Origin: Spiroplasma phoeniceum
GTDB taxonomy: Bacteria > Bacillota_I > Bacilli_A > Mycoplasmatales > Mycoplasmataceae
Direction: 5' to 3'
Assembly (NCBI GenBank): GCA_026239495.1
Contig: CP110830.1
Location: 124,001-188,000, forward strand
Length of the DNA stretch: 64,000 nucleotides
A model generated the notes under the pieces. It was given only the letters and a program-made list of their open reading frames with translations. It was not told the origin of the DNA and searched no databases. Numbering within the stretch: the stretch's first letter is position 1; each line of letters begins with the position of its first letter. Below, in pieces: positions 20,331 to 56,827 of this stretch. Position numbers and translations under genes: made by a program.

Positions 20331-21400
20331 AGACTTCTTGCGATACCTGGTTTTATTATTAAAATATTATTATAAAATATAATTTATGAGGATATTAAAT
20401 TATGAAATTTGATGAATTTAAAAATATTAATGATAAAGAATGATTAAGATTAACAGGAATAAAACAAGATATTTTTAATAAAATGTTAGATATTTTACAA
20501 GTAGCTGAAATAGAAAAATTTAAAAAAGGTGGCAAAGCTAATAAATTATCACTAGAAAATCGATTATTGATGACTTTATCGTATTGACGAGAATATCGAA
20601 CTTATTTTCATCTTGGAAAAAATTTTGGAATTAGTGAAGCTAATTGTTATCGCAATATCAAGTGAATTGAAGATATTTTAATTAAACACCCTGATTTTCA
20701 GCAAGTTGCTGGTAAAAAAGCACTAATAAATGATTATTTTAATGATAAAACTATTATTATTGATGTTACCGAAACCCCAATCCAACGCCCAAAAAAAGAC
20801 AAAAACAATCTTATTCTGGTAAAAAGAAAAAACACACTATTAAAACACAAGTAATTATCGAACAAGAAACCAAAAAAATTATTGCAACAAGTTTTTCGCT
20901 TGGTAAAAAACACGATTATGCTTTATTTAAAGAATCAAAAATCGCAATTTTAAAAAATACCAAATTAATAGTTGATAGTGGTTATCAAGGAATACAAAAA
21001 ATTCACAATAATGTTATAATTCCCACAAAGAAAACTAAGAAAAAACATTTAAATAAAGAACAAAAACAACATAATAGACTAGTTTCAAAAATAAGAATTA
21101 TTATTGAAAATATTTTTGCTATTCTTAAAAAATTTAAAATTATTACAGAAAAATATCGCAATCGTAGAAAACGATTTAGTTTAAGATTTAATTTAATTGC
21201 TTCAATTTATAATTTACAATTATTATAGTTATCATAAAAGATTTATTTAAAATTAACGAATTTGAATAATAAAATAATTTTTCGTTGTGGCAAAATATTA
21301 AATTTTTAAATAAAAGACATAATTAATTAAAATTATAATTTTATATTAACCCCTTTTTACAAATATTTGAAATTATTTTAATGGGTTATGCAAGAAGTCT
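20331..21400 (+). mobile_element. IS5-family subfamily A copy, intact
   Basis: A 1,070-bp element with perfect 11-bp ends and ATT target duplication (20,328-20,330 and 21,401-21,403). Both overlapping transposase frames are open. Confidence 0.93.
20402..21228 (+). CDS. IS5-family transposase, ORF A/B fused by -1 frameshift
   Basis: ORF A (20,402-20,854, 150 residues with TGA-Trp) overlaps ORF B in the -1 frame. At 20,791-20,797 a run of seven A follows CC and precedes G, reading CCA-AAA-AAA-GAC. A one-base slip back there joins ORF A to ORF B and gives one 275-residue DDE transposase. The fused product carries IIDVTETPIQRPKK (catalytic Asp region) and LIVDSGYQGIQ (second Asp). The 827-nt length and the A7 run are shared by all five intact copies, so the shift is probably programmed, not damage. 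Confidence 0.85.
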
Positions 21401-33400: not shown

Positions 33401-34471
33401 AGATTTCTTGCATAACCCATTAAAATAATTTCAAATATTTGTAAAAAGGGGTTAATATAAAATTATAATTTTAATTAATTATGTCTTTTATTTAAAAATT
33501 TAATATTTTTCCACAACGAAAAATTATTTTATTATTCAAATTCGTTAATTTTAAATAAATCTTTTATGATAACTATAATAATTGTAAATTATAAATTGAA
33601 GCAATTAAATTAAATCTTAAACTAAATCGTTTTCTACGATTTCTATATTTTTCTGTAATAATTTTAAATTTTTTAAGAATAGCAAAAATATTTTCAATAA
33701 TAATTCTTATTTTTGAAACTAGTCTATTATGTTGTTTTTGTTCTTTATTTAAATGTTTTTTCTTAGTTTTCTTTGTGGGCATTATAACATTATTGTGAAT
33801 TTTTTGTATTCCTTGATAACCACTATCAACTATTAATTTGGTATTTTTTAAAATTGCGATTTTTGATTCTTTAAATAAAGCATAATCGTGTTTTTTTACC
33901 AAGTGAAAAACTTGTTGCAATAATTTTTTTGGTTTCTTGTTCGATAATTACTTGTGTTTTAATAGTGTGTTTTTTCTTTTTACCAGAATAAGATTGTTTT
34001 TGTATTTTTTTGGGCGTTGGATTGGGGTTTCGGTAGCATCAATAATAATAGTTTTATCATTAAAATAATCATTTATTAGTGCTTTTTTACCAGCAACTTG
34101 CTGAAAATCAGGGTGTTTAATTAAAATATCTTCAATTCACTTGATATTGCGATAACAATTAGCTTCACTAATTCCGAAATTTTTTCCAAGATGAAAATAA
34201 GTTCGATATTCTCGTCAATACGATAAAGTCATCAATAATCGATTTTCTAGTGATAATTTATTAGCTTTTCCACCTTTTTTAAATTTTTCTATTTCAGCTA
34301 CTTGTAAAATATCTAACATTTTATTAAAAATATCTTGTTTTATTCCTGTTAATCTTAATCATTCTTTATCATTAATATTTTTAAATTCATCAAATTTCAT
34401 AATTTAATATCCTCATAAATTATATTTTATAATAATATTTTAATAATAAAACCAGGTATCGCAAGAAGTCT
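33401..34471 (-). mobile_element. IS5-family subfamily A copy, frameshifted
   Basis: A 1,071-bp copy, one base longer than intact ones, with AAT target duplication. The extra T near 33,897 shifts ORF B inside KKHDYALF, so no full transposase is made. One terminal base is also changed (AGATTTCTTGC). Confidence 0.9.
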
Positions 34472-34630: not shown

Positions 34631-36149
34631 TTAACCTCGCTTTCCTAATTGTTTACTTATTAAAAATGGATTATCTAATGTTTTTATAAAATATTCCATT
34701 ATATCCATAACAGCATAAGTCATAGCATCAAAACCATCATCAAATAATTTATTATCTTCTAATTTATAAGTAGATTTATTTGCAGGTGGTTTTCTTCATT
34801 CCATTTTTAACATATCCTTAAATAACTCTGGTGTTAATCGTTGACTAATTTGTAAATAATTCTTATTTAGCAAGATGATTATAGCATCAATTCTATCGGT
34901 TCTATATCAAACATCTTTGACTACTGATTTAAATCTTAATCAATTAGCATCGGGATAATATTGTCGTCTAATATTACTTAATGTATCAATAGAAACTAAA
35001 CCACCATTTCCATAGTCAACATTTACATCTAAACCATCTTGTAAATAATCTCATTTTATAGAAGCAGTTATAAAAAAGTGTACTATTTCAAGTAAAATTT
35101 TAGTTGTATCTTTATGTATCATTTCAGCATTGCTATGTTTATATTCCATTAATGGTGTCATTTTTTTATATTCTCTATCTAATCCCATTAAAATAGCATG
35201 ATTTGCATGTCCGAGAGGTGAATCAGCATAACCTAAATCTAAACCTGCTTCAAAATTAACTGGTTCAAAATCGTATAATTTACTAAATAAATAATTAGCA
35301 AAAATAGAGCCATCTAATGCTCATCGGCATTCCAATTCCTCAAACCTCATATTTTTTAGGTCATTCTGCTTTTAATTCATATAATTTCATTAATTCATCA
35401 TAATTTAAATTATCTTTATTAATTAAATAATTAGTATAATGATTAATTACTTTTTTATCATATGCTTTTTGACCTGTTTTAGGATCTAATACCGGAACTA
35501 TTAATTTAGATATTTGTTCTCCTTTACTTTCTAATTCTTTACGATTAAAAGGTAATAATTTGTTTAAATAATCTATATGATCTTGATAAATACTATCAGG
35601 GTTAGTACTTGTAATTAATATTAATTTTTTATAATCACGAACTGCTTGCATAATTGCTTCTTTTTCTGATTTACTAAATTCATTTGCTTCTTCAAGTCAA
35701 ATAATACATAAATCAGCACCATTTGCCCGTGCCGTTCCTTTACCTAATACTTGCGATGAATTGCTTTTTCTTGCTCCTTGTAATTTAATAAAACTAACAT
35801 TAGGAAATGTTCAAGTTGGTTTATTAAATCTAGCATTATATTGATAATGACCACCTTTTCATTTTTTAGTAGAATTAAGGATTAAACCAACTTTATCTAA
35901 TGCATCTTGAATATCTTGTTGCATTTCAGTAGTATCAGCACTATTTAATCTAAAACCATATATTGCTATTTTTTTATCTTTATTTGCTAATACAACACAA
36001 CTTAATAATGATATTAATTCATCAATACTATATGTTTTACCTGCTTTACGACTACCTGATAGATTAATCTCATCAGCAATGTATTCTGTATTTTCTAATA
36101 AACTAGTTATTATCTCATTAAGATAACTATATTCATATAACATTGCCAT
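34631..36149 (-). pseudogene. phage terminase large subunit (type 1), one frameshift
   Basis: TerL is the ATPase and nuclease that packages phage DNA. About 506 residues. The ATPase domain shows Walker A EINLSGSRKAGKTYSI (about residue 30), Walker B GADLCIIWLEEANEF and the coupling motif LILITSTNPDS. The nuclease domain begins FEAGLDLGYADSPLGHANHA and continues to ISKQLGKRG at the stop. The frame breaks once near 35,350 in a run of six A; five would restore it. Otherwise it is well preserved. The start overlaps the stop of the small terminase gene by one base. Confidence 0.85.
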
Positions 36150-36478
36150 TATATTTTTCTCCTATCTGTTATGTTAATTGCTGGGGGAGTATAATTTATT
36201 TCAGTTTCATTTTCACGACCATAATACTGCGCATATACTGATACGCCCCCTTTAGTTTCGTTTAAGAGATGTAATTTTATATTATTTTCTAGTATTCGTA
36301 TTTTCATTTTAAGTTCATTAAATGCTAATAAATTAATGTCTTTTAAGGCATTATATTCATCTTCTTCTAAATTACAAAAGATTAATAATGTTTCTTTTGT
36401 AGCAAGTTTGATATTATTTTCTTTACAATATTCATCAAATTTTGTTAATTTTTGCTTTATTTTTGTTAAATTTGCCAT
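36149..36478 (-). CDS. probable phage terminase small subunit
   Basis: A 109-residue charged protein (MANLTKIKQKLTKFDEYCKE ... INYTPPAINITDRRKI) with a helical, lysine-rich N-terminal half that could form the DNA-binding region. Its stop codon overlaps the first base of the large terminase start (36,149), the arrangement expected for a terS-terL pair. The call rests on position and size. No damage was seen. Upstream (36,479-36,725) is non-coding, with a hairpin AAAGACTT/AAGTCT-like segment near 36,572-36,592. Confidence 0.6.
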   Translation of the reverse strand: MANLTKIKQKLTKFDEYCKENNIKLATKETLLIFCNLEEDEYNALKDINLLAFNELKMKIRILENNIKLHLLNETKGGVSVYAQYYGRENETEINYTPPAINITDRRKI

Positions 36479-37127: not shown

Positions 37128-38197
37128 AGACTTCTTGCATAACCCATTAAAATAATTTCAAATATTTGTAAAAAGGGGTTAATATAAAATTATAATTTTA
37201 ATTAATTATGTCTTTTATTTAAAAATTTAATATTTTGCCACAACGAAAAATTATTTTATTATTCAAATTCGTTAATTTTAAATAAATCTTTTATGATAAC
37301 TATAATAATTGTAAATTATAAATTGAAGCAATTAAATTAAATCTTAAACTAAATCGTTTTCTACGATTTCTATATTTTTCTGTAATAATTTTAAATTTTT
37401 TAAGAATAGCAAAAATATTTTCAATAATAATTCTTATTTTTAAAACTAGTTTATTATGTTGTTTTTGTTCTTTATTTAAATGTTTTTTCTTAGTTTTCTT
37501 TGTGGGCATTATAACATTATTGTGAATTTTTTGTATTCCTTGATAACCACTATCAACTATTAATTTGGTATTTTTTAAAATTGCGATTTTTGATTCTTTA
37601 AATAAAGCATAATCGTGTTTTTTACCAAGTGAAAAACTTGTTGCAATAATTTTTTTGGTTTCTTGTTCGATAATTACTTGTGTTTTAATAGTGTGTTTTT
37701 TCTTTTTACCAGAATAAGATTGTTTTTGTCTTTTTTTGGGCGTTGGATTGGGGTTTCGGTAGCATCAATAATAATAGTTTTATCATTAAAATAATCATTT
37801 ATTAGTGCTTTTTTACCAGCAACTTGCTGAAAATCAGGGTGTTTAATTAAAATATCTTCAATTCACTTGATATTGCAATAACAATTAGCTTCACTAATTC
37901 CGAAATTTTTTCCAAGATGAAAATAAGTTCGATATTCTCGTCAATACGATAAAGTCATCAATAATCGATTTTCTAGTGATAATTTATTAGCTTTGCCACC
38001 TTTTTTAAATTTTTCTATTTCAGCTACTTGTAAAATATCTAACATTTTATTAAAAATATCTTGTTTTATTCCTGTTAATCTTAATCATTCTTTATCATTA
38101 ATATTTTTAAATTCATCAAATTTCATAATTTAATATCCTCATAAATTATATTTTATAATAATATTTTAATAATAAAACCAGGTATCGCAAGAAGTCT
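37128..38197 (-). mobile_element. IS5-family subfamily A copy, intact
   Basis: A 1,070-bp element with perfect ends and ATT duplication, inserted into the IS30 transposase gene. Confidence 0.92.
37300..38126 (-). CDS. IS5-family transposase (frameshift-fused)
   Basis: The 827-nt coding region has the same A7 slip site and length as the copy at 20,402. Both frames are open when TGA is Trp. It differs in a few residues (for example Cys for Arg in the NCYRNIK segment), so activity is likely but not certain. Confidence 0.82.
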
Positions 38198-38438: not shown

Positions 38439-40580
38439 GACTTCTTGCGATACCTGGTTTTATTATTAAAATATTATTATAAAATATAATTTATGAGGAT
38501 ATTAAATTATGAAATTTGATGAATTTAAAAATATTAATGATAAAGAATGATTAAGATTAACAGGAATAAAACAAGATATTTTTAATAAAATGTTAGATAT
38601 TTTACAAGTAGCTGAAATAGAAAAATTTAAAAAAGGTGGCAAAGCTAATAAATTATCACTATAAAATCGATTATTGATGACTTTATCGTATTGACGAGAA
38701 TATCGAACTTATTTTCATCTTGGAAAAAATTTCGGAATTAGTGAAGCTAATTGTTATTGCAATATCAAGTGAATTGAAGATATTTTAATTAAACACCCTG
38801 ATTTTCAGCAAGTTGCTGGTAAAAAAGCACTAATAAATGATTATTTTAATGATAAAACTATTATTATTGATGCTACCGAAACCCCAATCCAACGCCCAAA
38901 AAAAGACAAAAACAATCTTATTCTGGTAAAAAGAAAAAACACACTATTAAAACGCAAGTAGTTATCGAACAAGAAACCAAAAAAATTATTGCAACAAGTT
39001 TTTCACTTGGTAAAAAACACGATTATGCTTTATTTAAAGAATCAAAAATCGCAATTTTAAAAAATACCAAATTAATAGTTGATAGTGGTTATCAAGGAAT
39101 ACAAAAAATTCACAATAATAGACTTCTTGCGATACCTGGTTTTATTATTAAAATATTATTATAAAATATAATTTATGAGGATATTAAATTATGAAATTTG
39201 ATGAATTTAAAAATATTAATGATAAAGAATGATTAAGATTAACAGGAATAAAACAAGATATTTTTAATAAAATGTTAGATATTTTACAAGTAGCTGAAAT
39301 AGAAAAATTTAAAAAAGGTGGCAAAGCTAATAAATTATCACTAGAAAATCGATTATTGATGACTTTATCGTATTGACGAGAATATCGAACTTATTTTCAT
39401 CTTGGAAAAAATTTCGGAATTAGTGAAGCTAATTGTTATCGCAATATCAAGTGAATTGAAGATATTTTAATTAAACACCCTGATTTTCAGCAAGTTGCTG
39501 GTAAAAAATCACTAATAAATGATTATTTTAATGATAAAACTATTATTATTGATGCTACCGAAACCCCAATCCAACGCCCAAAAAAAGACAAAAACAATCT
39601 TATTCTGGTAAAAAGAAAAAACACACTATTAAAACACAAGTAATTATCGAACAAGAAACCAAAAAAATTATTGCAACAAGTTTTTCACTTGGTAAAAAAC
39701 ACGATTATGCTTTATTTAAAGAATCAAAAATCGCAATTTTAAAAAATACCAAATTAATAGTTGATAGTGGTTATCAAGGAATACAAAAAATTCACAATAA
39801 TGTTATAATGCCCACAAAGAAAACTAAGAAAAAACATTTAAATAAAGAACAAAAACAACATAATAGACTAGTTTCAAAAATAAGAATTATTATTTAAAAT
39901 ATTTTTGCTATTCTTAAAAAATTTAAAATTATTACAGAAAAATATAGAAATCGTAGAAAACGATTTAGTTTAAGATTTAATTTAATTGCTTCAATTTATA
40001 ATTTACAATTATTATAGTTATCATAAAAGATTTATTTAAAATTAACGAATTTGAATAATAAAATAATTTTTCGTTGTGGCAAAATATTAAATTTTTAAAT
40101 AAAAGACATAATTAATTAAAATTATAATTTTATATTAACCCCTTTTTACAAATATTTGAAATTATTTTAATGGGTTATGCAAGAAGTCTAATGTTATAAT
40201 GCCCACAAAGAAAACTAAGAAAAAACATTTAAATAAAGAACAAAAACAACATAATAGAATAGTTTCAAAAATAAGAATTATTATTGAAAATATTTTTGCT
40301 ATTCTTAAAAAATTTAAAATTATTACAGAAAAATATAGAAATCGTAGAAAACGATTTAGTTTAAGATTTAATTTAATTGCTTCAATTTATAATTTACAAT
40401 TATTATAGTTATCATAAAAGATTTATTTAAAATTAACGAATTTGAATAATAAAATAATTTTTCGTTGTGGCAAAATATTAAATTTTTAAATAAAAGACAT
40501 AATTAATTAAAATTATAATTTTATATTAACCCCTTTTTACAAATGTTTGAAATTATTTTAATGGGTTATGCAAGAAGTCT
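38439..40580 (+). mobile_element. IS5-family subfamily A copy, dead and interrupted
   Basis: An A copy with ACT target duplication in the IS30 gene. Its ORF A has TAA for Glu near 38,661. It is interrupted at 39,119/40,190 by another A copy in the same orientation. Its ORF B end resumes at 40,190. Confidence 0.9.
39120..40189 (+). mobile_element. IS5-family subfamily A copy nested in another A copy, dead
   Basis: A 1,070-bp element with AAT duplication inside the copy at 38,439-40,580. ORF A (from 39,191) is open, but ORF B has TAA in place of Glu at about 39,895. Confidence 0.9.
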
Positions 40581-42433: not shown

Positions 42434-43503
42434 AGACTTCTTGCGATACCTGGTTTTATTATTAAAATATTATTATAAAATATAATTTATGAGGATATTA
42501 AATTATGAAATTTGATGAATTTAAAAATATTAATGATAAAGAATGGTTAAGATTAACAGGAATAAAACAAGATATTTTTAATAAAATGTTAGATATTTTA
42601 CAAGTAGCTGAAATAGAAAAATTTAAAAAAGGTGGCAAAGCTAATAAATTATCACTAGAAAATCGATTATTGATGACTTTATCGTATTGACGAGAATATC
42701 GAACTTATTTTCATCTTGGAAAAAATTTCGGAATTAGTGAAGCTAATTGTTATCGCAATATCAAGTGAATTGAAGATATTTTAATTAAACACCCTGATTT
42801 TCAGCAAGTTGCTGGTAAAAAAGCACTAATAAATGATTATTTTAATGATAAAACTATTATTATTGATGCTACCGAAACCCCAATCCAACGCCCAAAAAAA
42901 GACAAAAACAATCTTATTCTGGTAAAAAGAAAAAACACACTATTAAAACACAAGTAATTATCGAACAAGAAACCAAAAAAATTATTGCAACAAGTTTTTC
43001 ACTTGGTAAAAAACACGATTATGCTTTATTTAAAGAATCAAAAATCGCAATTTTAAAAAATACCAAATTAATAGTTGATAGTGGTTATCAAGGAATACAA
43101 AAAATTCACAATAATGTTATAATGCCCACAAAGAAAACTAAGAAAAAACATTTAAATAAAGAACAAAAACAACATAATAGACTAGTTTCAAAAATAAGAA
43201 TTATTATTGAAAATATTTTTGCTATTCTTAAAAAATTTAAAATTATTACAGAAAAATATCGTAATCGAAGAAAACGATTTAGTTTAAGATTTAATTTAAT
43301 TGCTTCAATTTATAATTTACAATTATTATAGTTATCATAAAAGATTTATTTAAAATTAACAAATTTGAATAATAAAATAATTTTTCGTTGTGGCAAAATA
43401 TTAAATTTTTAAATAAAAGACATAATTAATTAAAATTATAGTTTTATATTAACCCTTTTTTACAAATATTTGAAATTATTTTAATGGGTTATGCAAGAAG
43501 TCT
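42434..43503 (+). mobile_element. IS5-family subfamily A copy, intact
   Basis: A 1,070-bp element with perfect ends. The flanking triplets differ (ATT at 42,431-42,433, AAT at 43,504-43,506), so it has no target duplication. It joins an IS3 remnant to a phage gene, which suggests a recombination junction between two copies. Confidence 0.92.
42505..43331 (+). CDS. IS5-family transposase (frameshift-fused)
   Basis: The 827-nt coding region has the A7 slip site at about 42,894-42,900. It is unusual in encoding Trp13 as TGG where sister copies use TGA. The product would be 275 residues. Confidence 0.85.
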
Positions 43504-44686: not shown

Positions 44687-45913
44687 TTAAGAATTTTTAA
44701 TTTTAACATCAATCGGATTTGTTTGACCAGTAGCGTTGTTTTTACCTTCAATTTGAACTTCAACAGTTTTATCATTTGTAATATTAATTGGTCAATCTTC
44801 ACCTTTACTTTCAATAAAGTAATCAAAATCACTTTCAGTTAAAGAACTATTTACTGCTTTTACTGCTTTTAAAACAACAGTTTTAAATTGTGGTTTTAAC
44901 TGTTCTGGTGTTGCTTTTGTTGGGTCTGTAACATGTATAGTTGGTTTATCTATTTTATTAATTTTACTAATATCAATTTTTGTAACAATATGTTTAATAA
45001 TTCCCTTAGGTTCAACTACTGCTCCACCTAAATATAAAACTCTTTCCATAATCAAAGTATTACCCATACCAGTGCCTAATGCAGCAGCACCAACTCTTAA
45101 TTGGGTGTGGTCTTTTTTGCGTAAAATAAGGGGGTCATATTTTTTACTAAATTTAAAGGCAATTGCATTAACACCATCTGGTAATAGAGTAATTGTTCCT
45201 TCTGAACCATCTTTATTGATAATTGGTAATTTTTTAGGAACCATATAGTATGTTGTTCCTTCAACAGTTTTCATTGCTCCACTTGTTGCAATTACACTAT
45301 TTATTTGGTCATTTGCTCCAAGTTGTAACTGTAATTTATTACGAATTCCACGAATAAAATCAGCCGAACCCAATACAACTGTTTCTGATGGAGTAAAGCC
45401 ATTTTCATATATTTTATCCATAATTTCATCATGAATTTGTAAAGCATTTGTATCATCTACTTTTTGTCCTTGAATAGTTGTAACTGTTTCTTTATTAATA
45501 ATTTCTAAAATTTTATTGCGTTTATAGGCAACCTCAGTATCCATTGCTTGCTCAATATCGGCCGCCCAAAGATTAGGATTAAAATCACTTTCTACAGGGT
45601 CTAATTTACGAGCAAAAGTTAAAATTGTATCTAATTCAACAGTTCCATCTTCAAATTTTACTTCAGTGTAGTTTAAAAGACTATCATCGGTATTAAATAC
45701 TTTTCCATCTTTTCCTAAACCCTCATTATATTGAATATTTTTCTTTCTTTTATATGTTAAACCAAATTTATTTGCTTCTTTTCACGCAAATAAAGCTTCT
45801 CAACTAAATTTTTGTTGATAAGTTTGTAAATATCATTGTTCAAATGTTTCTCGATCTCTTTGTGTTGCTTGATTAGCAATATCTCCGAAAATTCTTTGTG
45901 GGTTTTGTGCCAT
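44687..45913 (-). CDS. phage major-capsid-like protein with C-terminal accessory domain
   Basis: A 408-residue protein, continuous with TGA-Trp, starting MAQNPQRIFGDIANQATQRD after a GAAGG ribosome-binding site. The first 310 residues resemble phage coat proteins in organisation (capsid gene directly after a scaffold gene; SETVVLGSADFIRGIRNKLQ, DGVNAIAFKFSKKYDPLI). The last 97 residues (from KIDISKINKIDKPTIHVTDP) form a separate domain also found in the second capsid-like gene at 54,491. That domain's spacing of motifs (DIS, DP.K.T, SDF, ATGQ) recalls the repeat domain of spiralin, the main spiroplasma surface lipoprotein. Capsid identity is inferred from context. Confidence 0.65.
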
Positions 45914-45930
45914 AATTTACTTCCTTCTTT

Positions 45931-46389
45931 CTATTTATTAAATACATTGTCTGTATCTAAAATATTGTTTTCTTTGTTTTCTACTTTTTGTACGCCGCCA
46001 GTGTTAACTGTTTGTACCTTAATTAATTCATCATAAACACTTTGCAATTGTGTTTTAATGATTTCAATATCATCAGTAATATCATAAGACTTTAATAAAA
46101 CATTTTTAAAGTCTTCATTATCAGTTAAAGAATTAATAAAATCAATTACTTCAATTTGTTTTAGTTGAATTGTTTGTTGTTCAATTTGTGAAGTTAATTC
46201 AGTATTTTTTGTTTGTAGTTCGTTGATTTGCTGATTACTATTTTCTAAATTACTTGTATTAAATTCTTCAACTTCAACAGTATTTTCTAAAATAATTTCA
46301 GCAGTTTTAATATCTAAACTACCATCTTCATTTTTAATAGGTTCGTTATTTTCATCTATAAGAACATATTTTACATTTTTTACTGCCAT
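45931..46389 (-). CDS. phage scaffold-like protein
   Basis: A 152-residue acidic protein (MAVKNVKYVLIDENNEPIKN) with a central coiled coil rich in Gln, Glu and Asn (NQQINELQTKNTELTSQIEQ, about residues 50-80). It lies 17 bases upstream of the capsid-like gene. Size, acidity, coiled coil and position match phage scaffolding proteins, which shape the procapsid and are then lost. AGGAGG precedes the ATG. Confidence 0.65.
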   Translation of the reverse strand: MAVKNVKYVLIDENNEPIKNEDGSLDIKTAEIILENTVEVEEFNTSNLENSNQQINELQTKNTELTSQIEQQTIQLKQIEVIDFINSLTDNEDFKNVLLKSYDITDDIEIIKTQLQSVYDELIKVQTVNTGGVQKVENKENNILDTDNVFNK

Positions 46390-46412
46390 CGTTTTTCCTC
46401 CTATTTTTTAAG

Positions 46413-46799
46413 TTATTTATTTGTTCTTTTTCTAATCGCTTTTTGTATAATTTCAAAACTATCTACTCTAAAAGACAAAAAATATCGTTTAGTTTTTATA
46501 TTTAATTGATTAAATACTGAGCCTTTAATTTTTATCTCATCATCTTTTTTTAATTTCAAAAACTCAATTAAAACAGATGGATTATATATTGATAATGTTG
46601 AGTAATTTAATCCTTCTCACTGACATTTAGCCGAACAAGCATCAACTTCAACACCGCCAGCAACCAGTGCCTTAATCTTGGTTTTAATCGGATTTTCATG
46701 TAATCTAACAGTTAATTCTAATTTATTAACTCTTTTATTTTTTGTTTTAGGTTTATTAGTTATTGGTTCTTTGGATAAATTACTTTTTAGTTGTGTCAA
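46413..46799 (-). CDS. phage-associated small protein, possible OB-fold
   Basis: A 128-residue protein starting at TTG 46,799, placed 8 bases after AGGAG; no ATG is available. A basic N-terminus (KPKTKNKRVNKLELTVRLHE) precedes alternating hydrophobic strands ending DEIKIKGSVFNQ and RYFLSFRVDSFEII, which suggests a small beta-barrel. It overlaps the end of the preceding RuvC-like gene by 20 bases. A DNA-binding role is possible but not shown. Confidence 0.5.
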
Positions 46800-47082
46800 T
46801 TTTATCAACTCCTTTTGCTAAAAAATATTGTAAATGTTTTCAAGCATCGTGTTCGTGCTCTGTCATTTTAATATTTCCTTTATAAAAATAATTTTTCTTA
46901 ATAACTGGCGATTGTAAAACATAATTTAAATTAAATAGATATTTACATAAAACTTTTAAACCACCAATAAATTTAGGAGTAGATAATGGATTTTTTATTT
47001 TTAAACCTTTGTGAAGTTGATAATCTTCAATTATTAAAATAACTTTATTTAAATAAGAACAAATTTTATTTTTAAATTCATT
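46780..47082 (-). pseudogene. RuvC-like resolvase C-terminal fragment, cut by IS5
   Basis: About 100 residues remain. The pattern FIGGLKVLCKYLFNLNYVLQ followed by a C-terminal MTEHEHDAWKHLQYFL recalls phage RuvC-type Holliday junction resolvases, whose last catalytic acid sits in a similar H..DA..H motif. The N-terminus with the first acidic residues is missing because the IS5 copy at 47,083 cuts it. Confidence 0.45.
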
Positions 47083-48152
47083 AGACTTCTTGCATAACCC
47101 ATTAAAATAATTTCAAATATTTGTAAAAAGGGGTTAATATAAAATTATAATTTTAATTAATTATGTCTTTTATTTAAAAATTTAATATTTTGTCACAACG
47201 AAAAATTATTTTATTATTCAAATTTGTTAATTTTAAATAAATCTTTTATGATAACTATAATAATTGTAAATTATAAATTGAAGCAATTAAATTAAATCTT
47301 AAACTAAATCGTTTTCTACGATTTCTATATTTTTCTGTAATAATTTTAAATTTTTTAAGAATAGCAAAAATATTTTCAATAATAATTCTTATTTTTGAAA
47401 CTAGTCTATTATGTTGTTTTTGTTCTTTATTTAAATGTTTTTTCTTAGTTTTCTTTGTGGGCATTATAACATTATTGTGAATTTTTTGTATTCCTTGATA
47501 ACCACTATCAACTATTAATTTGGTATTTTTTAAAATTGCGATTTTTGATTCTTTAAATAAAGCATAATCATGTTTTTTTCCAAGCGAAAAACTTGTTGCA
47601 ATAATTTTTTTGGTTTCTTGTTCGATAATTACTTGTGTTTTAATAGTGTGTTTTTTCTTTTTACCAGAATAAGATTGTTTTTGTCTTTTTTTGGGCGTTG
47701 GATTGGGGTTTTGGTAACATCAATAATAATAGTTTTATCATTAAAATAATCATTTATTAGTACTTTTTTACCAGCAACTTGCTGAAAATCAGGGTGTTTA
47801 ATTAAAATATCTTCAATTCACTTGATATTGCGATAACAATTAGCTTCACTAATTCCGAAATTTTTTCCAAGATGAAAATAAGTTCGATATTCTCGTCAAT
47901 ACGATAAAGTCATCAATAATCGATTTTCTAGTGATAATTTATTAGCTTTGCCACCTTTTTTAAATTTTTCTATTTCAGCTACTTGTAAAATATCTAACAT
48001 TTTATTAAAAATATCTTGTTTTATTCCTGTTAATCTTAATCATTCTTTATCATTAATATTTTTAAATTCATCAAATTTCATAATTTAATATCCTCATAAA
48101 TTATATTTTATAATAATATTTTAATAATAAAACCAGGTATCGCAAGAAGTCT
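47083..48152 (-). mobile_element. IS5-family subfamily A copy, intact
   Basis: A 1,070-bp element with perfect ends and ATT duplication at 47,080-47,082 and 48,153-48,155. It entered a pre-existing fusion between phage DNA and an IS3 element. Confidence 0.92.
47255..48081 (-). CDS. IS5-family transposase (frameshift-fused)
   Basis: The 827-nt coding region has an intact A7 slip site. One change stands out: Lys replaces Glu in the DVTETPIQ segment near the first catalytic Asp, which may lower activity. Confidence 0.82.
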
Positions 48153-48567
48153 ATTAATCTTTGTTTTTGTTTTTGGAATAGATTCAAGCTTTTTTAAAAT
48201 ATTATTTTCTGCTTTTATTTGTTCATTTTCTTTTGTTAATAAATATATAGTTTCATCATGCGTATTATTAAAATTGGCATTTTTTAATATATGTTCGTTT
48301 ATCAAATTTTTTATCTTTATTGAAAAAATTAATTCACCTAGAAATAGTTGCAGTACTTATTTCATATTCTTTAGATATTAAAGATATTGATTTATTATAT
48401 TCGTAATATTCGTTAATAATTTTAGTTTTAAATTCAATATCATGATCTTTTGCCCCTTTATTTTTACCCCTTGCCATATAAAAAATGTTTCTCCTAACTT
48501 TATATATTTAATAATAACCTAGAAAGGTTTTTTATTTCATATTCTCAGTTAAAAGAAAAATTGTACA
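48153..48567 (-). mobile_element. IS3-family element (type 2), 5' part only
   Basis: The outer end reads TTGTACA at about 48,567. An AGGAG-containing leader and orfA follow, MARGKNKGAKDHDIEFKTKI with the HTH SISLISKEYEISTATISRW. A frameshift near 48,310 separates the second half (NTHDETIYLLTKENEQIKAE). orfB is absent; the element stops at a junction with phage sequence now occupied by an IS5 copy. Confidence 0.8.
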
Positions 48568-48649
48568 ACTTTTTCCTAGTTTGTTTTTAGTTGGTAAATA
48601 ATTTATTAATTTTAACTTGCATTTTAAAAGTAAACTTTATATTATTATT

Positions 48650-48812
48650 TTAACAACTTTAAAAAGCAATTTTGGTACGGGAATTAGGTGTGAATTCTAG
48701 GCTGTCCCAGCAACTTTAAAGTGTATGAAAGCTAACATCATTCCATTGAGAAAATATTTCTTGAGAAGGAATAGTTAGTAAAGCGAAACTAAGCAAGTAG
48801 ACCGATCTAAAA
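48650..48812 (+). promoter_or_regulatory. cobalamin-type riboswitch
   Basis: The segment contains GGTACGGGAATTAGGTG, GAATTCTAGGCTGTCCCAGC and AACT, closely matching the conserved core of the B12 aptamer. A GAGAAGG element lies near 48,773. A B12-box-like AAGCAAGTAGACCGATC at 48,791-48,807 matches the consensus at about 14 of 17 positions. Next on the same strand is a decayed deoD about 400 bases on, then a nucleoside kinase. B12 use is not expected in mollicutes, so regulation by this element is uncertain. Confidence 0.72.
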
Positions 48813-49218
48813 AGCGCTGGTAAATATCAATTCTGCACTTATAGTTATTACCTATGGGATTATATGATTAATTATTTATTAGTGAAAACTATTAAATAAT
48901 AATTTGAAAGACATCAAAAATCGTTTTTTAGTTGTTAATTTAAAGCATTAATACTATCAAAAAGTATTATTTAAAAGATAATAAATAATAAAATTAATTA
49001 ATAATTAAGCTTAATAGCATTTGATTTAAAATCGTTTTATTTTTGCTATTGTCTTAAACTATTAATTAAAATAATCGTAGAAATTAAACTTCATTTATGT
49101 GGATATTTAACAATATTCTTTTTCATGTTATTTAAATATCCTTACTTTTTAAATAAAAATAGCATTGATATGTATTTATTTGTAATTAAATTAAGCGGAA
49201 AAAGAGAGGATTAAAAAA
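48813..49218 (+). other. gene-free stretch between riboswitch and deoD
   Basis: No open frame of note. An inverted repeat ATTATTTATTAG/CTATTAAATAAT lies at about 48,872-48,903 and could be the riboswitch expression platform, although no T-run follows. A second repeat AATAGCA/TGCTATT lies near 49,013-49,050. The original target gene may have been lost here. Confidence 0.5.
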
Positions 49219-49929
49219 ATGACACCACATATTAATGCCAAAAAATAAGAAATTGCAAAAGTTGTTTTAATGCTGGGAGGCCCATTACGGGCAAAAAACG
49301 TTGCTGAGAAATATTTAACAAATTTAAAATTAGTAAATGAAGTTCGAAATATGTTAATGTATAAGTGAAAATATAAAAACATTGAGGTAACAATTGCCGG
49401 AAGTGGAATGGGTTGTTCAAATATTGGAATTTATTAATAGGAATTATTTAAGTTTTATGATGTTGATTATATTATTATAATTGATTCAGCTGGAAGTTAT
49501 AATCCAAATATAAAGTTTATGATTTCTTTAATGTTCGTGAAGCATTTGGCGAAAGTAATTATGCAAAAATTTCAGCTAATATTGATAGTAATTTAATTGC
49601 TGCAAGTGAAAAATTATTTAATGAAATTGAAACCGCAGCACAAGCAAAAGTAATTAAAAATCACACGGGAATTGTTCATGCAGCAGATGTTTTTTACTGT
49701 TATGATAATTCATTAGACCTTACTTATACTCATAAGTTAGATGTTGTTGAAATGGAATCATATGCTTTGTTTACTAATGCAATTGTTACGCAAAAAACAT
49801 GCAGCAACATTATTAACAATTTCTGACCATCCTGTAACTAAAGAAGTTAATACAGCATTGGAACGCCAAAATAATTTTATGACAATGGTTGAATTAGCGT
49901 TAGATACTGCTATTCAATTAATGGGTTAA
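49219..49929 (+). pseudogene. deoD: purine nucleoside phosphorylase DeoD, degraded
   Basis: DeoD splits purine nucleosides into base and (deoxy)ribose-1-phosphate. The start MTPHINAKK follows GAGAGGA; IAGSGMGCSNIGIY, YDVDYIIIIDSAGSYNP, DVVEMESYALF and LLTISDHPV are recognisable. TAA occurs after codon 9 and near 49,435, and there are frameshifts near 49,515 and 49,790. It lies 19 bases ahead of the intact nucleoside kinase, so the two were probably one purine-salvage operon. Confidence 0.88.
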
Positions 49930-49948
49930 AAATGAAAGGAGCGATAAA

Positions 49949-50572
49949 ATGAAAATTGCAGTCTTTGGAACCGTTGGGGCAGGAAAAACAAAAGTTAGTG
50001 AAGAATTATGTAAACAATTAAACTATAATTTATTTAAAGAACCATTAGAAGAAAATCCATATTTTAAAGATTTTTACCAAGATATGGAAGGATTTGCATT
50101 TAAAATGCAAATTTATATGTTAACAACAAGAATTGAGCAATTTTTCAACATTGATAATTTAGAGGATACTGTTTTTGACCGCACAATTTTAGAAGACCCT
50201 GTTTTTGTGCGAGTTTCCCACTTATTAAAAATTATGAATGAAATTGATTTTAAAGTTTATAATCGTTTTTTTCAAAATGTTATTGTTCCAATTTTTAAGA
50301 AAAAGTTAGGCTTTGATGTCATTATTTATTTAAAAGTTTCAACTAAAAAAGCGGTTGAACGAATTAAACAACGTGGGCGTCAATTAGAATTAGAAACCCC
50401 ATATTATTACTGGGAAAAGTTAAATGAACAGTATGAATTTTTATATAATGAATTAAAAAATGATTATAAATTTATTGTTATTGATGCTGACAGTGATGAT
50501 TTTTCAAAAAAAATAAGCATTATTATGCAACATTTATTACCTCTTGATAATAAATTTCCTTGTTTAATTTAA
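49949..50572 (+). CDS. deoxynucleoside kinase (dGK/dAK type)
   Basis: The enzyme phosphorylates deoxynucleosides to dNMPs, essential for mollicutes that salvage DNA precursors. It is 207 residues, typical. Present are the P-loop GTVGAGKTKVSEEL (residues 7-20), the substrate segment EPLEENPYFKDFYQDM, the catalytic DR motif in DTVFDRTILEDPVFV, and the lid RIKQRGRQLE. The start ATG follows AAAGGAGCG. It is undamaged, while deoD just upstream is broken. Preference for dG or dA cannot be read from the sequence. Confidence 0.92.
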   Translation: MKIAVFGTVGAGKTKVSEELCKQLNYNLFKEPLEENPYFKDFYQDMEGFAFKMQIYMLTTRIEQFFNIDNLEDTVFDRTILEDPVFVRVSHLLKIMNEIDFKVYNRFFQNVIVPIFKKKLGFDVIIYLKVSTKKAVERIKQRGRQLELETPYYYWEKLNEQYEFLYNELKNDYKFIVIDADSDDFSKKISIIMQHLLPLDNKFPCLI

Positions 50573-50618
50573 AAAATAATTATTATTAATATTTTAATTT
50601 AATAAGGATGAAATTAAA

Positions 50619-50699
50619 ATGAAAAGCACAAATAATAATATAGAAACAAAAAGTTTAAGTAATTTAAGAATTTTAGGAATAGGTCCTATTATTTATAAT
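50619..50699 (+). pseudogene. start of an unknown gene, cut by IS5
   Basis: Twenty-seven codons (MKSTNNNIETKSLSNLRILG, then IGPIIYN) follow an AAGGATG ribosome-binding site and run into the IS5 copy. Across the insertion the frame would soon enter antisense phage sequence, so the host gene had already been truncated at a prophage border. Confidence 0.5.
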
Positions 50700-51769
50700 A
50701 GACTTCTTGCATAACCCATTAAAATAATTTCAAATATTTGTAAAAAGGGGTTAATATAAAATTATAATTTTAATTAATTATGTCTTTTATTTAAAAATTT
50801 AATATTTTGCCACAACGAAAAATTATTTTATTATTCAAATTCGTTAATTTTAAATAAATCTTTTATGATAACTATAATAATTGTAAATTATAAATTGAAG
50901 CAATTAAATTAAATCTTAAACTAAATCGTTTTCTACGATTTCTATATTTTTCTGTAATAATTTTAAATTTTTTAAGAATAGCAAAAATATTTTCAATAAT
51001 AATTCTTATTTTTGAAACTAGTCTATTATGTTGTTTTTGTTCTTTATTTAAATGTTTTTTCTTAGTTTTCTTTGTGGGCATTATAACATTATTGTGAATT
51101 TTTTGTATTCCTTGATAACCACTATCAACTATTAATTTGGTATTTTTTAAAATTGCGATTTTTGATTCTTTAAATAAAGCATAATCGTGTTTTTTGCCAA
51201 GTGAAAAACTTGTTGCAATAATTTTTTTGGTTTCTTGTTCGATAATTACTTGTGTTTTAATAGTGTGTTTTTTCTTTTTACCAGAATAAGATTGTTTTTG
51301 TCTTTTTTTGGGCGTTGGATTGGGGTCTCGGTAACATCAATAATAATAGTTTTATCATTAAAATAATCATTTATTAGTGCTTTTTTACCAGCAACTTGCT
51401 GAAAATCAGGGTGTTTAATTAAAATATCTTCAATTCACTTGATATTGCGATAACAATTAGCTTCACTAATTCCGAAATTTTTTCCAAGATGAAAATAAGT
51501 TCGATATTCTCGTCAATACGATAAAGTCATCAATAATCGATTTTCTAGTGATAATTTATTAGCTTTGCCACCTTTTTTAAATTTTTCTATTTCAGCTACT
51601 TGTAAAATATCTAACATTTTATTAAAAATATCTTGTTTTATTCCTGTTAATCTTAATCATTCTTTATCATTAATATTTTTAAATTCATCAAATTTCATAA
51701 TTTAATATCCTCATAAATTATATTTTATAATAATATTTTAATAATAAAACCAGGTATCGCAAGAAGTCT
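50700..51769 (-). mobile_element. IS5-family subfamily A copy, intact
   Basis: A 1,070-bp element with perfect ends and AAT duplication at 50,697-50,699 and 51,770-51,772. It sits at the border between the nucleoside-kinase region and a prophage block. Confidence 0.92.
50872..51698 (-). CDS. IS5-family transposase (frameshift-fused)
   Basis: The 827-nt coding region has the A7 slip site and DVTETPIQ. Both frames are open and no damaging change was seen. Confidence 0.85.
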
Positions 51770-51775
51770 AATGTC

Positions 51776-52240
51776 TTAAATGGTCTTTTTTCATTTTGAT
51801 TTATCAATTCAAATAATGATTAAAGAAATTATTAAAGTAATTAAAGGTAATATTGTAAATACTAATCCCATTTTAGATATTTTTAATCTTGGTATATCAA
51901 TTTTCATATCAACTTTTGGTTTACCAGCAGCAACAAATATACCTTAAATTCCGTGTGTAAATAAAGGTGTTAGTAAAATAGCAACTCCATTATCTCAATA
52001 TTGACCACAATTATATCAATTAATATTATCTTTTATTGCATTAATCATACCATATTCTAATCAACAATTTAATGCTAAAAATATCAATGTATAAAAAATA
52101 ATCACTCAACTACAAATTTTATATTTTATTTCTCATTCTCTAATATCTTTATGAGTTCAATTATAATTTGGAATAGGGTCTTTTTTAAATCAATTTCAAG
52201 GCAAGGCATCCTTTAATCAAGTTGTTTTATCTTGTTTCAT
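51776..52240 (-). pseudogene. holin-like phage membrane protein with one nonsense codon
   Basis: About 154 codons starting MKQDKTTWLKDALPWNWFKK after an AAGGAG ribosome-binding site. Three to four membrane helices (SWVIIFYTLIFLALNC, VAILLTPLF, MGLVFTILPLITLITSLIII in approximate reading) and a basic tail WIDKSKWKKTI. A TAA near 51,943 interrupts the middle. It is the last gene of the phage block, after the fibre-like gene, where holins are often found. Confidence 0.5.
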
Positions 52241-52256
52241 TAATTTAATCTCCTTC

Positions 52257-53558
52257 CTAACTTACTTTTTTTCTTTCAATAAACATAAATTCCAAAGTTC
52301 TAAATTTTGCTGGACCATTAACTCCAATATTAATCACAATCCATCAGGATTAATAGATAATGCTAAACATGCACTATTAACAACTATTTGATCATATATA
52401 ACACCTATTGTTTGTATAAAAATATGCCTTGTTTGCAACATCCCTTGACTTTTTAAATATCCTTTGCTATATTCTCTTGATGCTCAAATTCTATAAATAT
52501 AATTTTCTTTATCAAAATTAGGAATATTATATCCAGTTTGACCAACTATAAAATCACTAGTATCAACAATTTCTCAATCATTACCAGCATTAATAGATAT
52601 ATCGCCACTGCCTAATAATGAACTACTATTAATAGTTTTAATATTTGTTCCACTTATTAATTTATCTTGTTTAGTATTAATTATTCTGTTCATATTTTCT
52701 ATTGCAAAATTAAATCCAGATATAGATAAATCTAATTTTTTTGATGTTTTTACAATATATTTGCCATTTTCTTTATCAATATAATCTTTATTCAAATCAC
52801 TATCTTTAATAACATCTGATGGAATTTCACCACCTTGTTTTGCTTTTCAAACATTATTATCAAAATAAATAGTATCATTATCAAATGGAACAATCATTTT
52901 AATATATTCTTTATAATAAATTTTACTAAAATCATTAACAGTTGGATAAGTAATATTTATTGAATTATCTGTTTATAATCGTTATTTTAATCAAAATAAT
53001 AATGTTGGATAAAAAGTTTTTTTACTAATATGCTTATATTCTTATTCTCAAAGATTAGCATAATTATCTAAACTATAATTATATGGTCTATCAACGGTTT
53101 TACTAGATATAATATCAATTATTTCACCTGCTAATTTTAAAGCATTTTTAACATCACGAGTAATATTTTGATTTGCTTCAGAGTCATTAGTTTGAGAATA
53201 AGCAACTCCACCCTGGTAAAAATGAAGCACTACCAGTTAAATCATTAACTCCTTTGGGTAAATATCAATTTATAACCGCTAATAAACAGGCAGATTGAAT
53301 ATAACTTAATCATTTATCATATTGAATTAAACCAGTATTATCTTTTTTTACTCAGTGAAATAAATATTTTTTATTTATTTTATCTAAAATTGTCCCACCT
53401 GATAATCTATCCATTCATAAAATAGTTTTTAAAATAGCATTATAAATTAAATTATCATTATAAGAAGATTGTTTTCTATCATTAATGGGTTGTCAAAGTT
53501 TACTTTCTTTCACATCTTCAACTTTTATAAATAACAAATTACTTAAATTATTTTCCAT
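52257..53558 (-). pseudogene. phage tail-fibre or baseplate-like protein, broken
   Basis: A gene of about 430 codons starting MENNLSNLLFIKVEDVKESK after GAGGTG. Its middle carries the motif ISGTNIKTINSSSLLGSGDI, common in tail fibres and adsorption proteins of Gram-positive phages. The frame is lost near 53,225, at TAA codons near 52,970, and near 52,335, after which the natural end GVNGPAKFRTLEFMFIERKK is readable in another frame. Host binding is the likely role. Confidence 0.65.
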
Positions 53559-54485
53559 ATAAAACACCTCTTAATTGATTGCGATATTTATTTTTTAAAT
53601 TACTCGGCTTATAACTATTAATTTTTCTTTGTACTTTTTTAATTTTTTTAATAGTTTGATTATTTTTGTAAAACATATTTTTAACTGGTGTTTTATATAA
53701 ATCCTTAATATTTTTAACATCACTTCGGCGTTCACGATACCATTTTTATTATTAATTTCACCAGCAAAATTAAAATTAAAATGTCCAATTTTTAAATTAT
53801 TAATAAACTTTTTAATTTGATTTAATTTTTGAACTGTTGGTAATGTTAATTTAGTAGTTCTTTTGGTGTGTTTTTCTTTTAATGCTTGCGGTAATCGTTT
53901 TTTAATATAATTTCTTAAATGACTAGGTAATAATTTTCTTAATCAATAACGTCAAAATAAAGTTCCTACATTAGATACAGCATTACTTAATAATTTTCAA
54001 ATTTCAACTGGAACACCAGGATAAACATATGGACCATAAAATTTCGGATGTTTTGCTGTTTTTTTATATATTAAAATAGTTAAATTACCTGTTAAAGTTA
54101 ACTTATTAGTTATATTAAACACACCACCATCAAGTCAACTACTATTTAAAGGTTGTCAATTAGTATTTAAATAATTTTCATTTTTAAATTGTTCTCTATT
54201 TTTAATATTATTATCTTTTTCTAATTGAATTAATATTTGTTGTATTTCTTTTTTATGACATTTTTTAATTAAATCTAAATAAGTAAATGGATTTAATTAA
54301 TGGTAAATATCTTCAACTTTATTTGTAATTTTATTATATTTATCAGTAATATAATTAATTGGCTTTAATACTTTATTGTGAACTTGATTAACTCTATTAA
54401 TTAAATTTACAAATTTACTTATTAAGGGTTTATTTTCTAAACTAGATACTAATAAAGTTAAAACTCGTAAAATTAGTAAGTTCAT
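53548..54485 (-). pseudogene. phage structural-type protein, broken
   Basis: The frame starts MNLLILRVLTLLVSSLENKP and is interrupted by TAA at 54,297. It continues (LNPFTYLDLIKKCHKKEIQQ, FYGPYVYPGVPVEIWKLLSN) to a frameshift near 53,745, then ends in a basic tail ending NQLRGVLYGK. The stop overlaps the start of the fibre-like gene by 11 bases. It takes the same place after a capsid-like gene as the protein at 43,502-44,650, but the two are not clearly alike. Family not recognised. Confidence 0.55.
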
Positions 54486-54490
54486 TGTTT

Positions 54491-55754
54491 ATTAAGAGTT
54501 TTTAATTACTACATAAATCGGATTTGTTTGACCAGTAGCGTTGTTTTTGCCTTCAATTTGGACAAAAACCTTGGTATCATTTGTAATATTTATTGGTCAA
54601 TCAACACCAGCACTTTCAATAAAGGAATCAAAACCACCCTCAGTTAAAGAACTATCTACGGCTTTAACTACTTTTAAAACAACATCTTTAAATTGTGGTT
54701 TTAACTGTTCTGGTGCTGCTTTTGTTGGGCCTCTAACATGAATATTTGGTTTATCTATTTTATTAATTTTACTAATATCTATTTTACTTGGTGTTGGTGC
54801 AGTGATTACATAGTCAACTGGCACTCTAAATGTTTTATTTAGATTACTTTTAGCAGTATTAATTTCATCTTTTGTTGGTTCTTTTTTTAAAATAATTTTA
54901 TATGTTTTAGGATATAAAATAGTTGGTGTTACATAATGTACTTTACCGATTCATTTAGGGTTAGCAGTATCATTATCTAAAACTTGTTGAATAGTATCCA
55001 TATTAATTGTATATGATCATACTTGTTTATTAATAATTAAACCATTTACATTAGTAAAATTATAACCTTTATCACGGTTAACTTGTCCTTTTGTATATGT
55101 TTTTTCTAAATGAAAGCTTTTTGATACTGGAACACCCATTGCTGTATTTTCATATAATTCACCATTAACCATCGATTTTAATTGTGCTTGTGAACCAATT
55201 ACTTTTAAATAAGCGGGCGTTAACACTAAATATGATCTTCAACCTAAAACCATAAACATTTTATCTGTTGGTAAACCAAAATATAAATTACTAATTTGAT
55301 TTGTTAATTCAATCAAAGTTTCATTTAATTTAAAGAATGCTCTATTTGCATCGCCAGCATTATCTGCTGTATAACTACGAAATGGAATTACTTCATATTG
55401 ACCATCTGCTAAACAATAATCATAAATAGCCTGAATTAATTCACATTATAAATTAACAAATTTATTTTGCACAACACTAGAAATAGCATCAGCGATAACA
55501 CCATTTTTAATATTTTGTTCTATTAATGCTAAGTCAAAAGCCTCATTAATTAATTTTAAATTAAATCTTTTATCAATCGGAACTGGAATTCTTGTTAATC
55601 CCATTGTTTGAGTTGCTCCACCATTTGGTAATGAATAATCATCTTGTCATAACACACGATGAGTTAAATTATATAATGCTTGTCCAGCATTAGGTAATAA
55701 AGCAACTTATTCTGCTGTTGCGGTTGCATATTGCATAATACTTGCATATTCATT
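54491..55754 (-). pseudogene. second phage capsid-like protein, truncated
   Basis: About 420 codons remain (ALYNLTHRVLWQDDYSLPNG, GATQTMGLTRIPVPIDKRFN, GLPTDKMFMVLGWRSYLVLT). The N-terminal start is lost at the IS5 copy at 55,755. Two TAA codons (near 55,710 and 55,448) interrupt it. The last 95 or so residues (from KIDISKINKIDKPNIHVRGP) are nearly the same as the end of the capsid-like protein at 44,687, although the rest differs. It precedes the structural, fibre and holin-like genes, as in a phage morphogenesis operon. Confidence 0.65.
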
Positions 55755-56827
55755 AGACTTCTTGCATAACCTAATCTAATTATTTTAAAATTCCTATAAA
55801 ATATTTTAAAATTAAAATAGAAATTATAGGAGATTAAAATTATGAAATTTGATAAATTTAATTTTATTAATGATAAAGAATTATTGCGATTAACCGGAGC
55901 GAAAAAAGTTACTTTTAATAAAATGTTAAATATTTTACAAGTAGCTGAAATAGAAAAATTTAAAAAAGGTGGCAAAACTAATAAATTATCACCAGAAAAT
56001 CGGCTACTGACGATTTTATCGTATTGACGAGAATATCGGACCTATTTTCATCTTGCTAAAAGTTTTGATATTAGTGAATCTAGTTGTTATCGCAATATCA
56101 AGTGAATTGAAGATATTTTAATTAAACACTCTGATTTTCAACAAATCGCTGGTAAAAAATCACTAATAAATGATTATTTTAATGATAAAACTATTATTAT
56201 TGATGTTACCGAAACCCCAATCCAACGCCCAAAAAAAGACAAAAACAATCTTATTCTGGTAAAAAGAAAAAACACACCATTAAAACACAAGTAATTATCG
56301 AACAAGAAACCAAAAAAATTATTGCAACAAGTTTTTCGCTTGAAAAAAAATGATTATGCTTTATTTAAAGAATCAAAAATCTCAATTTTAAAAAATACCA
56401 AATTAATAGTTGATATTGGTTATCAAGGAATTCAAAAAATTCACAATAATGTTCTAATATCTACAAAAAAACAAAGAAAAACCCTTTAAATAAAGCACAA
56501 AAACAACGTAATAGAATATTTTCAAAAATGAGAATTATTATTGAAAATATTTTTGCTATTCTTAAAAAATTTAAAATTATTACAGAAAAATATCGTAATC
56601 GAAGAAAACGATTTAGTTTAAGATTTAATTTAATTGCTTCAATTTATAATTTGCAGTTAGTATAGAAGATTTATTTAAAATTAAAGAATTTAAATAATAA
56701 ATTCATTTTTTGTTGTGGCAAAATATTAAATTTTTAAATAAAAAACATAATTAATTAAAATTATATTTTTCTATTAGTGTCTTTTTACAAATATTTGCAA
56801 TTTTTTAATAGGTTACGCAAGAAGTAT
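55755..56827 (+). mobile_element. IS5-family subfamily B copy, decayed
   Basis: A full-length copy with a mutated right end (GCAAGAAGTAT). The transposase has a 2-base loss near 56,344 and further changes near 56,460. The left flank is a phage capsid gene and the right flank a transketolase gene, with no shared triplet, so it marks a recombination junction. Confidence 0.85.

Follow-up and report, generated by a model that had tools for sequence, protein, structure and literature searches.

The stretch of Spiroplasma DNA analysed here, 64,000 nucleotides long and hereafter called the window, is read in genetic code 4 and lies within a 2.18-Mb genome. It holds the genes of two capsid-like proteins, which we name P1 and P2 (Table 1). 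P1 is intact; P2 is a decayed copy that has in-frame TAA codons (two counted) and lacks its 5′ end. As the initial annotation had noticed, the two proteins are unlike over most of their length and finish in nearly the same residues: the last ~97 are 82% identical (E 2e-48 for the pair), and outside them no significant alignment between P1 and P2 was found. The extents it gave hold for P1 (44,687–45,913) but not for P2, where the range 54,491–55,754 reads through stops because the gene is a decayed copy with in-frame TAA. The evidence below supports homology of the shared tail to spiralin, the major membrane lipoprotein of S. citri (PMC3485318). The sharing is far beyond chance, because a search of the window's own genome returned 37 rows, 34 of which are copies of the domain (at least 92 of its 97 residues, 73–99% identity); the other three are a fragment of 31 residues, a weak overlapping match and the spiralin of the genome itself at E 2e-4.

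The initial annotation had named spiralin, and at the level of profile homology the link is supported. In hhalign comparisons, the alignment of the phage domain with the spiralin N-domain spans 90 columns (91.9% probability, score 40.6), and that with the C-domain scores 34.6. In the respective controls, 60 column shuffles reached at most 19.1 and 18.3, and the reversed profile 12.0 and 11.2; as a yardstick, the spiralin N-domain scores 32.8 against its own C-domain. That is, profile similarity exceeds both kinds of control, which supports membership of the spiralin domain superfamily. In addition, a hidden Markov model (HMM) of the fused phage domains was searched against 2,879 open reading frames (ORFs), a library enriched for spiralin loci, and 2,879 reversed decoys. 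It finds lipobox proteins including spiralins (L097 at 7e-8 and the S. citri-type L154 at 2e-5; L numbers denote loci and G numbers genomes) and the genome's own spiralin at E 1e-4, with the first reversed decoy at E 0.43. By BLASTP, the P1 domain matches the N-terminal half of that spiralin at 3e-8 and the C-terminal half at 2e-4, and the P2 domain matches spiralin at 0.001 only. Seven phage domains, fused or first ones, were each scanned by themselves against NCBIfam, and spiralin_LP (NF038030) is the top family for five (P1, L072, L120 and the first domains of L060 and L104; E 0.001–0.031). Finally, in a tree of 45 domains a 98/100 branch sets all 16 phage domains together with the N-type domains of spiralin; the tree neither rejects (p-AU 0.236) nor shows a single clade of phage domains, and it does not decide the direction of transfer between phage and host.

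The strict cut-offs of Pfam and NCBIfam are not reached, and here the spiralin link falls short. Several searches weigh against it. The Pfam search proposed for residues 312–408 of P1 gave PF05215 at 16.8 bits (E 0.0099), below the 25-bit cut-off; PF05215 matched neither whole P1, whole P2 nor the P2 domain alone; Pfam gave no match to the L072, L120 and L104 domains alone; and the NCBIfam spiralin models did not match P2, L024 or the second domain of either L060 or L104. The L060 ORF scored 20 bits with PF05215, again under 25 bits, and the same model also scored below cut-off in one of 14 control genomes (B. subtilis). The best phage-domain score against NF038030 is 18.8 bits, short of the 140-bit full-length criterion, and no lipoprotein signal of the kind that marks a spiralin lipoprotein (NF038030) was seen at the start of P1.

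Predicted structures point the same way as the profiles. The model of the P1 domain has a helix at residues 336–354 and strands at 363–369, 382–390 and 401–405; that of the spiralin N domain has a helix at 31–49 and strands at 58–63, 81–89 and 103–107. In both, three strands follow a helix of 19 residues, and the first strand starts 27 residues after the helix does. The comparison with a spiralin model that the initial annotation had suggested therefore yields the same helix–strand order at nearly the same spacing, and the P1 domain is predicted to share the topology, and by this measure the fold, of spiralin. The models were compared by element order and shared templates: both align with the same ranges of 9flv, 4l3a and 5eq4 at low Z (3.6–4.9), 4l3a being shared with spiralin N and 5eq4 with spiralin C, and these templates are bacterial surface proteins. 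Further low-Z matches of the domain are to Rib, Siglec-adhesin and cadherin domains. The structural match lists name no known capsid decoration family, and such lists exclude none.

A sub-threshold Pfam score of 16.8 bits and top PDB matches to generic surface folds at low Z are what a general phage Ig-like domain resembling spiralin by chance could also produce. We consider such convergence very improbable: hhalign, NCBIfam and the fused-domain HMM single out spiralin, and Pfam, NCBIfam and PHROGs gave no consistent match to a rival family with a known function. One PHROG without known function, phrog_38127, matched residues 5–36 of the −1-frame ORF described below at E 0.0038.

Spiralin domains also occur in another phage-like context. 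The 672-aa protein of L085:1-2016 (G011:C1 ~169978) matches PF12461, ‘Spiroplasma phage ORF1-like’, at 55 bits and PF05215 at 29.7 bits, above the cut-off. Its relatives L084, L098, L147 and L148 match PF05215 and not PF12461, and tblastn against the phage collection found nothing. A spiralin-domain ORF is present in many copies on small plasmid-like contigs: those of G005 (at least nine on C1 and at least two on C2; e.g. L147) and G007:C2 (L148).

P2 identifies the phage setting. It shares 75–84% identity with the capsid in three records of Spiroplasma phage MaM-2019a (OL689226, OL689227 and OL689230), for which the host is given as S. poulsonii; according to PMC12453411, phage-like contigs of MaM-2019a description were assembled from S. 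poulsonii particle DNA. The domain is present in all three, which answers the initial annotation's query about other Spiroplasma phages. The depositors' HHPred notes on these capsids report a match to the P22 major capsid at 35.9–94.5%, and it is from these notes that P2 is given a putative HK97 capsid fold. For P1, gene position supports a role as a capsid or virion protein, putatively also of the HK97 fold. The gene that follows it is close to the one that follows the P2-type capsid in OL689230 (MSRO-P1; Table 1), and another P1 copy in the same genome is followed by an OL689230-type post-capsid gene and then by a head–tail connector homologue; the 158-aa gene preceding that copy finds no match among the three phage records. 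The model of the P1 body, mostly at pLDDT <50 (31 alignment rows, 12 of which cover the body at 85% identity or more), does not show its fold. P1 gave no family match in Pfam, NCBIfam and PHROGs; Foldseek with the body model, at that low pLDDT, returned nothing usable; an IMG/VR scan with P1, which reached close relatives only, gave no confirmed match; and only irrelevant weak matches, or none at all, came from PDB sequence searches. Capsid profiles of P2 and of two further types, P3 (L109) and P4 (L149), are mutually related (97–99%), and P1 is unrelated to them (<2%).

Table 1. Features of the window around P1 and P2 (window positions).
Feature	Position	Strand	Basis
P1, protein in capsid slot, 408 aa, intact; residues 1–311 = body	44687..45913	-	ORF in code 4; slot from gene position
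P1 spiralin-like C-terminal domain, residues 312–408	44690..44980	-	BLASTP, profile and structure-model comparisons
P2, 3′ open part, 317 aa; decayed capsid gene of MaM-2019a type	54492..55445	-	identity to MaM-2019a capsids
P2, in-frame upstream remnant between in-frame stops; 5′ end of gene missing	55446..55706	-	
P2 spiralin-like C-terminal domain	54495..54785	-	alignment to P1 domain
152-aa protein just upstream of P1, scaffold position	45931..46389	-	weak PHROG matches
Gene directly downstream of P1	43502..44659	-	93% identity over 382 aa to OL689230 post-capsid gene
Remnants of the MaM-2019a gene that comes next after a P2-type capsid	53595..54488	-	comparison with phage records
ORF adjoining broken 5′ end of P2, presumably transposase-like	55842..56294	+	relatives recur through window
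Terminase large-subunit pieces	34631–36161		comparison with MaM-2019a counterparts
Near-identical 150-aa ORFs, presumably transposase-like	20402–20854, 33948–34400, 37674–38126, 39191–39643, 42505–42957, 47629–48081, 51246–51698		

The 152-aa protein upstream of P1 has weak PHROG matches to a tail chaperone and a scaffold (E ~0.01). The window mixes parts of different prophages, because its terminase pieces are only 27–29% identical to their MaM-2019a counterparts. Near-identical 150-aa ORFs, which we take to be transposase-like, recur through it, as does the kind of ORF next to P2 that we likewise presume to be transposase-like. In MaM-type prophages, the opposite strand also holds a small lipoprotein-like gene (L161:18221-18718, L163:5520-6053 and L062:8299-8850), possibly for a superinfection-exclusion lipoprotein.

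The domain behaves as a module. At the 30 own-genome loci where the body was read, it follows P1 in 17, P2 in 11, a P4 tail in one (L024; 81% identity over 78 aa to L149, E 3e-39) and no body in one (L031), so that within this genome it sits on at least three capsid types. Among 14 genomes of the genus, 12 have a match of some kind (four of these to spiralin-like proteins only), eight match the P1 body and nine match P2-type capsids, distant matches counted. In the full-length copies read from the window genome and from S. poulsonii, the domain is fused in frame. The same module at the C-terminus of unrelated capsid bodies is the mark of phage Ig-like decoration domains, the status of P1 as a virion protein being taken here from its gene position.

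A different arrangement is found in three relatives (G002, G004 and G007), namely one that we take to be S. citri, S. kunkelii and a third. Their capsids, which between them cover types P1, P2, P3 and P4, finish in a domain of ~75 residues, and this end is overlapped by a −1-frame ORF (227–232 codons in full-length copies) with two spiralin-like domains, the first of which scores 31.5 against spiralin N and 17.5, within the range of the shuffle runs, against spiralin C. Exact matches to the junction around TTATTCAAAGTAAGTAG number 21, in three of 14 genomes (5, 4 and 12), and a control pattern has no occurrence in the 14. We read 16 of the 21 junctions and compared ten, which lie on P1, P2, P3 and P4 bodies. 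Annotation has mostly passed this ORF over: on an S. citri plasmid, the stretch after the capsid is empty in the NCBI annotation and the next gene starts 327 nt later, and the first domain is without any NCBI annotation in seven of the nine plasmid records matched. The pN/pS of 0.41 shows that the first domain is under purifying selection, a figure that pools non-independent pairs of ten copies, two of which (L048 and L117) lie behind broken capsid frames. Two points temper this: the second domain, at 0.70 on the same pooling, is under weaker constraint, and recent exchange, in place of constraint, may lie behind the related junction copies.

How this ORF is translated is probably by a programmed frameshift that joins it to the capsid, as the junctions suggest. 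None of the 16 has an ATG, GTG or TTG ahead of the first domain (~codon 13), and 13 have none until codon 114. The −1 frame opens only ~28 nt ahead of the capsid stop, and the junction offers A_AAG, a known low-level −1 site (PMC5009743). These features also bear on whether the ORF encodes a separate decoration protein begun at a non-standard start codon, which would need no frameshift and would agree with the lack of a canonical slippery heptamer and of RNA structure (z +1.0, +1.3 and -0.1) at the junction. We hold this to be unlikely: no standard start lies ahead of the first domain, the frame opens late, the candidate ATA start varies to GTA, and no Shine–Dalgarno-like run was seen in the ten junctions compared, whereas AAGGA-type ribosome sites stand at all four capsid starts examined. 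The missing heptamer and RNA structure do count against frameshifting, as do several further observations. In L135 and L138 the first domain itself contains a TTG (codon 45 or 49); the −1 ORF of L141 is only 26 codons long, with no start; under phage codon use, 113 codons would be free of starts by chance with a probability of 0.04; and two of four fused domains checked likewise are without start codons. A single case in G006 (L060:396-2124) has a P2-type capsid and then an overlapping two-domain spiralin-like ORF in the +1 frame. Its overlap contains the rare pair CCC AGG, which is reminiscent of the +1 frameshift at a proline codon in Listeria phage PSA as described in PMC5009743, and the +1 ORF has an in-frame ATG.

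The ~75-residue domain at these capsid ends belongs to a second lipoprotein family. It is 63–67% identical to 16 tandem repeats (period 76 residues) of the S. kunkelii pSKU205 lipoprotein WP_053391604, which has the same domain but is a surface lipoprotein without a capsid body. An initial idea that it is the ‘sarpin’ repeat was dropped, given this period against the 38–42 residues of sarpin repeats (PMC3485318). Four other candidate carriers of the repeat domain, L040 (a G003 lipoprotein) and the plasmid proteins L148, L085 and L084, were not borne out (HMM E 0.08–0.7).

Could the spiralin-like domain simply be a structural cement, with only the fold of spiralin, that binds neighbouring subunits and not host surfaces? 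In-frame fusion in the window genome and S. poulsonii and weak structural matches to stalk and S-layer assembly domains would fit. A cement would, however, be expected to co-evolve with its lattice, and the domain sits on unrelated bodies, lies out of frame in some relatives and comes in divergent variants on one capsid body (L120, L060). Moreover, the repeat domain that closes two P2-type capsids of G011 (L107 and L125) is not followed by a spiralin-like ORF. We therefore judge the cement explanation improbable.

Overall, we think it probable that the shared tail is a swappable spiralin-fold display module of the capsid, fused or added by frameshift, that projects from the head and adheres weakly. 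This account builds on the domain itself, its homology, the capsid slot, the modularity and the selection in the −1 frame; frameshifting, outward display and adhesion we infer from these. A module of the N-terminal spiralin type would have moved as a cassette between the C-termini of unrelated tailed-phage capsids. With in-frame fusion, seen in full-length copies from the window genome and from S. poulsonii, each subunit would bear a single domain. In the S. citri-type relatives, the ribosome would slip at A_AAG beside the stop codon and add two spiralin-like domains; because these lie in the overlapping −1 frame, the extension would be present on a part of the subunits only. The domains would project from the head and may bind cell or insect surfaces weakly and multivalently, as phage Ig-like decoration domains do. 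Display on the phage head is our best reading and the likelier part; for weak multivalent adhesion to spiroplasma or insect surfaces, argued by analogy, the chances seem roughly balanced. Display may also bear on adsorption, insect transmission or immune mimicry, as the initial annotation proposed. A bolder version is doubtful: heads would show the spiralin and plasmid repeat lipoprotein families in a ratio set by frameshifting and so ride spiroplasma or insect surfaces, and spiralin itself, with its relatives, may descend from, or still exchange with, phage head-decoration domains.

Part of this is on record. GenBank already records a weak match to spiralin for one such capsid, as the depositors' HHPred note ‘PF05215.15 Spiralin 67.74%’ on OL689226, one of the three MaM-2019a records. 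Our literature search found no paper that states a link between spiralin and phage capsids, although Ramirez et al. (doi 10.1007/s00284-022-03099-7) may state it. Within that search, what appears to be new is the statistics behind the link, its occurrence on unrelated capsids, the domain shared with the repeat lipoprotein and the arrangement in overlapping frames. Judging by titles cited in PMC12453411, spiralin is a lectin and is needed for efficient leafhopper transmission. A spiralin domain as an exchangeable tail on several phage capsids ties phage heads to the surface coats of their hosts and provides a concrete candidate for phage adherence in insects. It also opens a possible mollicute capsid decorated by frameshifting to direct testing.

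Compared with known systems, the closest phages are those of the MaM-2019a records, which have the same P2-type capsid with the domain; they have P2-type capsids only and no −1-frame arrangement. Spiralin itself (PF05215; NF038030 spiralin_LP and NF038028 spiralin_repeat) offers a homologous domain of ~95 residues, on its N-terminal-domain side, with the same helix–strand order. Unlike spiralin, the phage domain has no signal peptide or lipobox, sits on capsid proteins and scores below the curated cut-offs. A close parallel is with the Ig-like domains that, as surveyed in PMC5009743, are added to capsid and tail proteins by fusion or by −1 or +1 frameshift in phages T3, A2, A118, A500 and PSA. 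The spiralin-like module follows the same pattern, because it is C-terminal and modular, occurs on unrelated virion proteins and is fused, in the −1 frame, perhaps in the +1 frame, or absent. T4 Hoc, which has Ig-like domains, is thought to aid attachment to bacterial surfaces (PMC10385173). Unlike these phage Ig-like domains, the module described here, whose frameshifting is predicted, belongs to the family of the host's own surface lipoproteins.

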